DNA of 64,000 bases from Pseudomonas chlororaphis subsp. aurantiaca. Lineage in GTDB: Bacteria > Pseudomonadota > Gammaproteobacteria > Pseudomonadales > Pseudomonadaceae. Position numbers and translations under genes: made by a program. The notes below the pieces were generated by a model, which saw nothing but the letters and a program-made list of their open reading frames with translations, did not search any database and had not been told where the DNA came from. Of this stretch, positions 1 through 2,807 are shown in pieces; position 1 is the first letter of the stretch, and every line of letters begins with the position of its first letter. Location: contig NZ_CP059162.1 in the NCBI RefSeq assembly GCF_013466605.1, forward strand, positions 5,890,001 through 5,954,000. Direction: 5' to 3'.

Positions 1-808
1 AGTGGTAGCGAAAGGCTTGGCGGTGAATCTTGAAGCCTCGACGCTTATACAACTGGAGCACGCCCATGTCAGGCTTGAGCGGGTGATCGGTAATCGCATC
101 TCTGCTCATCTCCAGTAGTGGCGTGAGATTGCGACCACTTCTGGCAGCGATCAGCAAAAGGTAGACCGTCATAGCTGCGGCCTCGCTCCCACCAGGCAAA
201 TTACCGGAGCGGATCATGTCTAAGTCCTTCAGGAGCGCTATCAGCAAGCGCTCGATCTCGCCCTGCGTGAATGCCTGATGACCAACATACGCTCTGTCTG
301 CGTTCGGAAATGGGATTTGGGGAAACACGCCAATCCCGAGTTGCCCAGCGCGAACACGGTTCATCAAGACTGTTTTTGTTGTGTTGTAGATGGCCCGCGC
401 CGATGTGACTGAGATTGTTCCCTTACCTCTTGCTGGCTGTTTCTTCAGCCATTCCGTGTAGCGTTCAACTGTGCGCGGTATTATGTCGGCGAGGCACCCT
501 ATGACGCGCCCCTTACCCGATTCAGCGTCGAGGTACTTGAACCAGTAACGCATACCAGAGGCACAAAGGTTCAGTACGGTCGCTTGGCTGACCCCCGACG
601 ATTGGATTTCGTGGACGGCCTCGTACAACTGACGTGAGAGCAATTGTCTTGTGGCTGGCTCGATCGCTCCCGGCACCGATACCCACTGCGCGAAGTCGAA
701 CACCCTCGTTCCCACGCAAATCGTCATGTCACCAAGTGGTTTTTTTGCTGTTTCAATCGAGATGATGGTTTCTGGCTGCATGCCATAGCTTTTTCTGGGT
801 CTAGCCAT
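1..808 (-). CDS. gmtZ: Second tyrosine recombinase of a mobile island (GmtZ-like), partial, runs off the left edge
   Basis: The minus-strand frame is open from ATG at 808-806 to the window edge, giving the first ~269 residues. It begins MARPRKSYGMQPETI. The N-terminal half looks like a SAM-like core-binding region (an ERYTEWLKK helix near residue 120). The tail reads LLIAARSGRNLTPLLEM, the usual place of the first catalytic Arg in tyrosine recombinases. Its ATG lies inside the stop of the upstream recombinase gene (8-nt overlap), so the two are translationally coupled. Two coupled recombinases of different size at an island end resemble GmtY/GmtZ of gamma-mobile-trio elements. This name rests on recall of the family, and the catalytic C-terminus lies outside the window. 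A Tn554-like or other recombinase set is the alternative. Confidence 0.6.
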   Translation of the reverse strand, partial: MARPRKSYGMQPETIISIETAKKPLGDMTICVGTRVFDFAQWVSVPGAIEPATRQLLSRQLYEAVHEIQSSGVSQATVLNLCASGMRYWFKYLDAESGKGRVIGCLADIIPRTVERYTEWLKKQPARGKGTISVTSARAIYNTTKTVLMNRVRAGQLGIGVFPQIPFPNADRAYVGHQAFTQGEIERLLIALLKDLDMIRSGNLPGGSEAAAMTVYLLLIAARSGRNLTPLLEMSRDAITDHPLKPDMGVLQLYKRRGFKIHRQAFRYH

Positions 809-1994
809 GTGCACTCCCAAGCAAGTCCAACTCTTCCTGATATGTATTCAGTTCCGAGTTTTCCATGAGATCAATACAGTGAAGATAGATGCTAGTCGTT
901 TGGACGCTGCTGTGGCCCAGTCGATCTCGAACCCAGGCAAGCGCTTGCCCCATGGCCGTGCGCTGCGACTGGTGGAGTAGTTCGAAAGTAGCAAAGGTGT
1001 GTCTCAGCATGTGCGGGGTAACCTTGAACATTACGCGAGGTTTTTTTCCCGACCAAAGTCGTCTGTACGCATTGTTCAAGCCTTTTTCACTGAAAGGATG
1101 ACCATCTCTGTTTAAGAAAACGAGTTGAATCCCAGAGCGGCTTGTAGTGCGACCAGCCTTGGCCCTGAATGCTCCCTCAGCGAAGCTCAGATAGTCGAAA
1201 AGCTCCCGCATAACGTGCCAACCGATGAAGACTGTCCTAGGTTTTGAATTCTTCAGCAGCATGTCCGATGGGCTGAGATCAACACGAATGCGCTTCCGTA
1301 CATCGAGCCCTGTCGGGTCAAAAACATACTTGGTAGGAAATGTCCTGCATTCTTCATTGCGAAGGCCAGTTTGAAGCATCAGCACCGTCATCAATCGAAG
1401 CGTTTTATTTGTGCATGCCTGAATCAAGAGCTTGGCTTGTTCAAGCGACAGAAGTTTAGGCGGCTCGCGAAAGACCTTCAGCCGAAGGTCGTCGCCATCT
1501 GTCACCTTGGCTGCGTGTGCATGCCTCAAGAAGCCCTGATTGTTCCCGGCAACAAATTTCGGTGAGGCATCCCAAGGAACGGAGCTAATGCGGCCTTGTT
1601 TATGCGCCCATTGATAGAACCCCATGAGGCATGTCAGGCGCTGATTCACAGTGCTCGGTTTTATGGCCCTCAAGCCCGTTGATGGACTTGTCAGGGAGAT
1701 TGACCAGTTCCGGTACGCGGCAAGATTGCTTACGGCGGATCGAGCGTGCCCCGCGATAGGGACATGAGCCCAATCGAGGGCGTTTGCCTCCAGCCATGAG
1801 AAGTAGTCGTACAGTGCCTCGCCGTGATTTCTCCATGTCTTGGGGCTACGCGTCTTGCCTCGTTCCAGCGCCAGATACATAAGGTAATCGTTTGCCGGCT
1901 CTACCAACTCCATTTGCCCGTCCAGCAGGAAAGGAATTCCAATATAAGGCTGTGTTAGCAGAACGAAACTGTTATCGGTGAACAGTAGCCTCAT
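801..1994 (-). CDS. gmtY: Tyrosine recombinase at island end (GmtY-like)
   Basis: A 397-residue site-specific recombinase. The catalytic set is visible: Arg212 in QTGLRNEE, His328 and Arg331 in HMLRHTFAT, His361 in LGHSS and the nucleophile Tyr370 in TSIYLH. An N-terminal core-binding domain occupies about residues 30-150. The start is ATG at 1994, only ~70 nt from the truncated phuT, so this is the first gene of the mobile element. It overlaps the next recombinase gene by 8 nt. Family and catalytic class are certain from the motifs. The specific gamma-mobile-trio assignment (GmtY) is inference from size, order and coupling. It presumably mediates insertion or excision of the island. Confidence 0.8.
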   Translation of the reverse strand: MRLLFTDNSFVLLTQPYIGIPFLLDGQMELVEPANDYLMYLALERGKTRSPKTWRNHGEALYDYFSWLEANALDWAHVPIAGHARSAVSNLAAYRNWSISLTSPSTGLRAIKPSTVNQRLTCLMGFYQWAHKQGRISSVPWDASPKFVAGNNQGFLRHAHAAKVTDGDDLRLKVFREPPKLLSLEQAKLLIQACTNKTLRLMTVLMLQTGLRNEECRTFPTKYVFDPTGLDVRKRIRVDLSPSDMLLKNSKPRTVFIGWHVMRELFDYLSFAEGAFRAKAGRTTSRSGIQLVFLNRDGHPFSEKGLNNAYRRLWSGKKPRVMFKVTPHMLRHTFATFELLHQSQRTAMGQALAWVRDRLGHSSVQTTSIYLHCIDLMENSELNTYQEELDLLGSAHG

Positions 1995-2039
1995 GGTTCA
2001 TACCACTCATTGAGTACTGAGAGATCCTTTCTCTCTAAG

Positions 2040-2807
2040 CTAATGAATCATAGGCGCTCTGTCTGTAACAGAAATAGGGTTACCCTGCTTGAACAGCGCG
2101 GCGCGGGCCGTCTCACCGCTCAGGCTGCGATCGGCAAACACCAGCACGTCAGGGTTGAGTTCGGCCAACGACTCCGTGGAAAAGGGTTTGTAACCCGTGT
2201 GGGTGGCAAGATTGCGTCCACCCGCCTGCTGCAACAGCCAGTCGGCAGCGGTGTCCTTGCCGGCAATCAGAGGTTTGCCACCCGCATGCCCGAGCAACAG
2301 CAGCACACCCGGCGGCGCCTGCTTTTTCCGGGCCTGGCTGACCCAGGCCTGCTGCTGATCCAGTTGCTGCTTATATTGCTCGAACAGTTGCGTCGCCTTG
2401 TCTTCGCTGCCCAGCAACTTGCCCAGATGCTGCAGGTTGCCCTGCAGGGTCGGCAGGTCGGCCTGGGCCGAGAACAGCTCGACCTGCACCCCGGCGCTGC
2501 GCACCTGCCAGAGCACCGGCGGCGGCCCCATCTCTTCGGTACCCACCAGAATCTGCGGACGCAGGCTGAGAATGCCTTCCGCCGACAGCTGGCGCTGATA
2601 ACCGATACTCGGCAGCTTTTTCAAGGATTCGGGATGCTGGCTGGTGGTGTCCACGCCCACCAGCTTCGACTCGGCGCCCAGCGCGCTCACCCATTCGGAC
2701 AGGGCGCCGCCGGCGCTTACCCAGCGTTGTGGTAACTCGGCCGCCGCAGCGGCATGACTGGCCAGAAGTCCGACACAGAGCGCGATTGCGCGGGCACTCG
2801 AACGCAT
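2040..2807 (-). pseudogene. phuT: Haem ABC-transporter substrate-binding protein, 3' end cut off by island insertion
   Basis: The product is a periplasmic haem-binding protein of the PhuT/HmuT family, feeding the inner-membrane haem importer. The 255-residue frame starts with a signal peptide (about residues 1-23, ending AAAAE). It carries family stretches such as LVGVDTTSQHP, GYQRQLSAEGILSLRP and LAELNPDVLVFADRS. The homologous part stops after ALFKQ (about position 2087). The last ~14 residues are read from island DNA and end at a TAG. Full-length members are roughly 290-300 residues, so about 45 C-terminal residues of the C-lobe are lost. The remainder of phuT and the permease and ATPase genes would lie beyond the island, outside the window. 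Haem uptake through this locus is probably broken. Confidence 0.8.
2062..2086. repeat. Two tandem short palindromes at the island/phuT junction
   Basis: Positions 2062-2072 (TCTGTAACAGA) and 2076-2086 (AGGGTTACCCT) are each an 11-nt inverted repeat around one central base. They are 3 nt apart and share a GTWAC core. They sit exactly where phuT homology stops, next to the recombinase gene. They are candidate recombinase-binding or attachment-site arms. The function is inferred and the exact crossover is unknown. Confidence 0.45.

Follow-up and report, generated by a model that had tools for sequence, protein, structure and literature searches.

A probable SE with a biosynthetic cluster as cargo in phuT of Pseudomonas chlororaphis subsp. 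aurantiaca

SEs share a plan in which genes for two active recombinases (intA, intB) lie around one for a degenerate Tfp and are followed by srap (PMC10214605), and their insertion leaves a host hexamer beside the intA end and a hexamer carried by the element beside the other end (PMC9345347). SE-6945 and SE-6283 have 20.5–26.6% in common (PMC9345347). According to PMC10214605, SEs include one separate Pseudomonas clade, and for most chromosomal SEs of Pseudomonas it was not possible to place the ends exactly; the parts of that paper drawn on here report no SE outside Gammaproteobacteria. GInts (ginABCD islands), a sister class that also carries biosynthetic clusters (e.g. that of phaseolotoxin), fall apart from SEs in published sequence networks (PMC10214605). 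Tn554-type transposons likewise have two active recombinases, a 6-bp footprint and a small accessory protein (PMC10214605), but are without a Tfp counterpart. The element described here, ~38.86 kb long, appears to be a mobile island of this little-known four-gene class, carrying an uncharacterised natural-product cluster.

Island anatomy and the insertion site in phuT

The DNA analysed (the window, 64,000 nucleotides) corresponds to positions 5,890,001–5,954,000 of a closed 6.95-Mb genome, and its left edge falls inside the element. Coordinates are given as genome position minus 5890000, positive values being window coordinates (Table 1). Read right to left on the minus strand, the order is phuT (cut at ~2087), intA, tfp, intB, srap, cargo, the distal end, the 3′ end of phuT and phuU. 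The truncated phuT frame comprises ~241 native residues and a 14-residue foreign tail, the last codons and stop of this fusion being provided by the intA-proximal end of the element; an intact homologue (locus L078) has 295 residues and the same start. The missing end of phuT, followed by phuU (FecCD, E 1.1e-89), was found 38.9 kb leftward on the same closed chromosome, and empty phuT sites in relatives confirm that these are two halves of one gene. With ~54 C-terminal residues missing, PhuT function has probably been lost through the insertion. The element has a G+C content of 56.0%, compared with 62.3% across the window; the four core genes stand at 50.9%.

The first-pass annotation had taken this part of the window for the terminus of a recombinase-driven island that interrupts a haem-uptake gene, with two overlapping recombinase-type genes adjoining a truncated phuT and cargo just beyond the left edge. 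This reading holds: the two frames (801–1994 and 1–820) adjoin the cut gene, cargo lies between srap and the distal end, and leftward extension recovered the phuT remnant, so that the contrary result named there, a flank without one, was not obtained.

Table 1 Features of the element and its insertion site (genome position minus 5890000).
Feature	Position	Strand	Details
phuT, truncated	2040..2807	-	255-aa frame; Peripla_BP_2 E 1.5e-24
attL hexamer TTCAAG	2088..2093	-	matches all empty sites examined (24/24); exact register set by symmetry
intA-proximal element end	1995..2087	-	terminal repeat GGTAACCCTATTTCTGTTACA at 2064-2084
intA	801..1994	-	397 aa (408 in SE-6945); Phage_integrase PF00589 E 7.8e-16
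tfp	-880 to 820	-	566 aa (581 in SE-6945); 5′ part at 1..820, 3′ part left of window
intB	-2958 to -877	-	693 aa (720 in SE-6945)
srap	-3415 to -2960	-	151 aa (135 in SE-6945)
Second module	-10.8 to -6.7 kb (L004:9177-13290)		ferredoxin reductase, TIM-barrel protein, isopropylmalate-synthase-like protein, AzlC exporter
Biosynthetic cluster	-33.4 to -13.0 kb (L003:6608 to L004:6972)		17 genes
Distal element end	~-36769		

Of the 32 phuT loci fetched, two come from the same genome; the site was inspected in 24, and the other six (L065, L072–L076) were left out. In the 24 empty sites TTCAAG is followed by GA (23) or CA (one). At the insertion, the intA side reads TTCAAG then CAGGGTAACCC and the distal side TTCACG then GAAAACCCG, the latter being the right arm of the empty site, so both parts of a split attB are retained at attL and attR. 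An inverted repeat, GGTAA-C/T-C-C/A-TATTT(A)CTGTTACA, is present at both ends (alignment score 30, reached by 5 of 5000 random interior pairs). From the symmetric register we infer that the hexamers are TTCAAG at attL and TTCACG at attR. As in SEs, imperfect inverted repeats would thus lie about a 6-bp spacer placed in this register, with the attL hexamer derived from attB and the attR hexamer foreign, the pre-insertion site being taken from the 24 relatives. The terminal repeats and hexamers, so placed, appear to fit the SE rule.

A second insertion gives the same picture. Among 398 genomes of the genus, 37 (the host included) matched Tfp at E≤0.001, some weakly; P. migulae NBRC 103157 alone has a close match (92%), and among full-length matches the next best lie at 34–38%. 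In P. migulae (NZ_BDAG01000047.1) a 9.14-kb element occupies the same phuT site with the same ends, including TTCACG at attR (terminal repeat score 26, reached by 41/5000), and carries a different cargo, encoding a SulP-type transporter and a universal-stress-type protein. DNA identity between the two strains is 89–99% in the core, 76–80% in phuT, phuU and phuV and 83–92% in other neighbours; since the core is closer than phuT, phuU and phuV, the element and its site have probably had separate histories of transfer. With copies at one site in two species, the element's ends are defined, empty sites are available for comparison and a version of only 9 kb is known, so that copy-out movement becomes testable in soil strains.

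Core genes and comparison with tested SEs

The window contributes two open minus-strand frames to the core, listed as 801–1994 and 2–820, the second of which runs off the window; they overlap by 20 bases as listed, or by about 8 if translation begins at an inner ATG. None of the four core frames is interrupted. IntA has a complete set of catalytic residues, R-K-H-R-H-Y (R212, K248, H328, R331, H361 and Y370), and in alignments of 20 rows R, H, R, H and Y are complete in every row of both gene 1 (intA) and gene 3 (intB). In gene 2 (tfp), by comparison, the His of HxxR is absent from all 20 rows, the second His is replaced by Asn in 17 and kept in three, and the place of the first Arg, located by eye, holds G-x-N throughout (GRN in 17, GIN in three). 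R365 and Y398 are nevertheless retained in 20/20 rows, so Tfp is degenerate rather than empty of the motif.

At E≤0.001 the part of tfp in the window had no match in either Pfam or NCBIfam, the full-length protein matched none in Pfam, and a profile search of PDB sequences with the 20 Tfp rows gave nothing at E≤1. A model of the P. migulae homologue (mean pLDDT 62.2, pTM 0.42) matched XerH (5jk0) with E 9.9e-7 and TM 0.32/0.49 (0.32 by query), and all 17 matches at E≤0.001 were XerH or Cre-type recombinases; XerH, as entry 5JJV, is also named for the SE-6945 Tfp (PMC10214605). The model suggests that Tfp is a recombinase-fold protein with a degenerate catalytic motif, giving the SE combination of IntA and IntB with RHRY and a Tfp without it. 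Gene 4 (srap) has a predicted helix-turn-helix stretch and, likely, a coiled coil; one sibling is annotated TetR/AcrR.

The four core genes show one-to-one collinear matches, in the same order and orientation, to two SEs that have been studied by experiment, the element on pAQU1 (SE-Pda04Ya311) and SE-6945 on pSEA1 (Vibrio). The matches are strong for intA and intB, at the level of profiles for tfp and mixed for srap. In blastp against four-sequence databases, E-values for intA, tfp, intB and srap were 8e-7, 0.13, 2.8e-16 and 3.6e-4 (pAQU1) and 1.1e-12, 0.002, 1.8e-13 and 0.052 (SE-6945), and the tfp–SE-6945 edge would come to ~0.3 at the published network size. Corresponding hhalign values were 97.5, 94.3, 98.5 and 55.7% (pAQU1) and 98.9, 92.5, 99.2 and 91.0% (SE-6945), with off-diagonal matches of 5.3% at most. 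As the blastp match to the pAQU1 Tfp is not significant and the SE-6945 edge would weaken at network size, the tfp link to SEs rests on profiles, and the relationship to the tested Tfps, as judged from sequence, is distant; many gene 2 rows have TGRNTTPLL where the pAQU1 Tfp has TGQNTTPLL. Terminal inverted repeats and the attL/attR hexamer pattern are further features in common with SE-6945 and SE-Pda04Ya311. The differences are identities of 20–37% over blastp-aligned stretches (26–33 residues for tfp), the phuT target, and a biosynthetic cluster here versus a beta-lactamase there as cargo.

A search of pAQU1 with IntA gave no match, though an SE is present in that record. By tblastn, the pAQU1 Tfp matched 50 plasmid records, with no Pseudomonas among the matches listed, and the Tfp studied here matched 230, Pseudomonas being the leading genus with 87, and also had partial matches (22–31%) in three alphaproteobacterial genera beyond the SE range (Agrobacterium, Sphingobium and Rhizobium). 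This difference between plasmid sets is not decisive, because the SE survey describes its Pseudomonas clade as separate.

Cargo and IS-associated rearrangement

The 17-gene cluster encodes two AMP ligases, a carrier protein, an AurF-type N-oxygenase, two weakly KASIII-like proteins, a PLP decarboxylase, an acyl-CoA dehydrogenase/citrate-synthase fusion, a methyltransferase, a TauD-type oxygenase, an ABC exporter, an FAD oxidase, a SnoaL-like protein and three proteins without family. No recognised match to its product was found in the literature listings and abstract openings searched. The AurF-type gene is present in 6 of 398 genus genomes, including this one, at 83–87% identity in the other five, where the surrounding stretches of 16.8–19 kb contain 11–16 of the 17 cluster genes in the same order; these stretches cut the cluster, with the SnoaL gene beyond their reach, and hold none of the core genes.

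Two 1328-base repeats (99.8% identical), by reading putative IS copies, flank the cluster. The right copy has GTCAG on both sides and the left copy has no duplication, nor do the outer ends of the pair carry a target duplication; a clean composite transposon was therefore rejected as the origin of the cluster. Next to the distal end of the element is the N-terminal portion (~310 residues) of a TrlF-type protein (Ppl only in padloc, 0.0005), its gene being cut short by an IS copy, and the remaining part of trlF was not found in 70 kb of the locus. In another genome (G231), an intact 998-residue TrlF relative (NF045780, 701.8 bits; L129:5904-8900), a TrlF-family ATPase, lies ~2 kb from a core quartet and runs towards it, as does the remnant here. 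According to the first-pass annotation, the class that the arrangement resembles carries defence and antagonism cargo; here the truncated trlF is the sole defence-like piece, and the cargo is otherwise mostly a biosynthetic cluster.

Class assignment, rival readings and host range

Taken together, core genes, motif placement and ends make it probable that the element is an SE, a new member of a known but recent class, with GInts judged here by their published descriptions. New to the class, most likely, are its phuT target, the kind of cargo and its lineage, through which the host range of the class may prove wider. If it is an SE, its cargo would be a biosynthetic cluster; no cargo of this kind is mentioned in the titles or abstract openings of the papers naming SEs that were surveyed, although an example may have been published. 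Assignment to the GInts was made initially, from the four-gene plan and biosynthetic cargo, and was dropped on motif placement and the comparison with SE proteins. The element has the same number of core genes, is near the GInt median size of 34.9 kb (SE median, 15.7 kb) and resembles GInts in its biosynthetic cargo and short imperfect repeats (PMC5385486, PMC10214605), and Pht-PAI (PMC5385486) is likewise a four-gene island with biosynthetic cargo in Pseudomonas. GInts, but in the available text of PMC10214605 not SEs, are also known from Betaproteobacteria, and the nearest relatives of this element include Burkholderiales. The difference lies in the position of the degenerate protein among the three recombinase-like ones: GinA and GinB are described as carrying RHRY and the third protein, GinC, as lacking it (PMC5385486), whereas in this element the degenerate protein comes second and the third has the full motif, in 20/20 rows. 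Moreover, no blastp match between SE and GInt genes is reported in PMC10214605, as far as its text was available, yet the proteins of this element match those of SEs. A GInt is, on balance, improbable.

Far more remote still is a gamma-mobile-trio island, the class that the first-pass annotation had proposed and that we consider effectively discarded. Overlapping recombinase genes at an island end and the remnant of a defence-like gene would suit it, but the core has four genes, not three, and no Gmt model matched any of the four proteins at E≤10, a search in which HMMER filters drop most matches above ~0.1 and for which the GmtY model (NF040693) was confirmed in NCBIfam; the accessions NF040692 and NF040694 belong to other families. 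Across the whole genome GmtY gave one match, below cut-off, at 1213129, and likewise in 11 of 14 control genomes. A different question, compatible with the SE assignment, is whether IS-driven rearrangement and gain of the cluster have left a fixed island that is immobile as a unit. The cut in trlF and the target duplication at one IS copy and not the other are in keeping with this, but the open core frames and two recognisable ends speak against it, and we think immobility rather doubtful.

What can be read directly from the DNA is the anatomy, the ends and the use of one site in two species. For an SE, by analogy with tested members, IntA and IntB would carry out a single-strand exchange between attL and attR, assisted by two non-catalytic proteins, Tfp as a DNA-binding partner and Srap as an accessory factor. 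A circle with the left hexamer would be copied out, the original staying in place, and could insert at the TTCAAG of phuT; attL would then have the host hexamer and attR the one brought in by the circle.

Eighteen wide loci, drawn from the 29 other loci matched in the genus search, all contain the four genes in order, with gene 3 only partly found in L056 and a 1.4-kb gap after gene 1 in L055. By reading, their insertion points appear to differ, several lying in umuC-like and kguT-like genes, and umuD or umuC is annotated beside two plasmid copies. SulP and universal stress protein genes are found near both the P. migulae copy (G211:C47:30017-32397) and the quartet on P. aeruginosa plasmid pPUV-5 (L119:18401-20754), the proteins being 88% and 64% identical, respectively.

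A scan of species genomes yielded seven loci. The complete quartet is present in six of them, one from P. migulae and five from Burkholderiales (L090–L093 and L095; Duganella, two Caballeronia, Burkholderia sp. Leaf177 and Paraburkholderia lacunae). The P. profundi locus is cut at a contig end. In an IntB tree of 27 rows, with some deeper forks open and long branches flagged, the element, P. migulae and Duganella group at 100/99 and four Burkholderiaceae join at 85/93; beyond P. migulae, the nearest intB rows are thus Burkholderiales, and the best plasmid matches of IntA and Tfp are in Paraburkholderia. L093 matches SE-6945 in intA (4.1e-12), tfp (2.9e-4) and intB (7.1e-18) and the pAQU1 srap (2e-4). 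For L090, all four proteins match those of pAQU1 (tfp 0.011), and just two, IntA and IntB, match those of SE-6945. The host of the present element would fit a restriction of SEs to Gammaproteobacteria; five Burkholderiales loci, outside that range, also hold four such genes. Either the published SE search missed a Burkholderiales branch, or such elements were counted as GInts. We give even weight for and against the view that SEs extend beyond Gammaproteobacteria, as one lineage across Burkholderiales and Pseudomonas that has a phuT target in the latter and carries entire natural-product pathways from one species to another. Less closely related four-gene cores, in which the second protein is larger (648 and 836 aa), are present in L109 and L111; L109 matches both the present set and the SE proteins, and L111 does so only in part.
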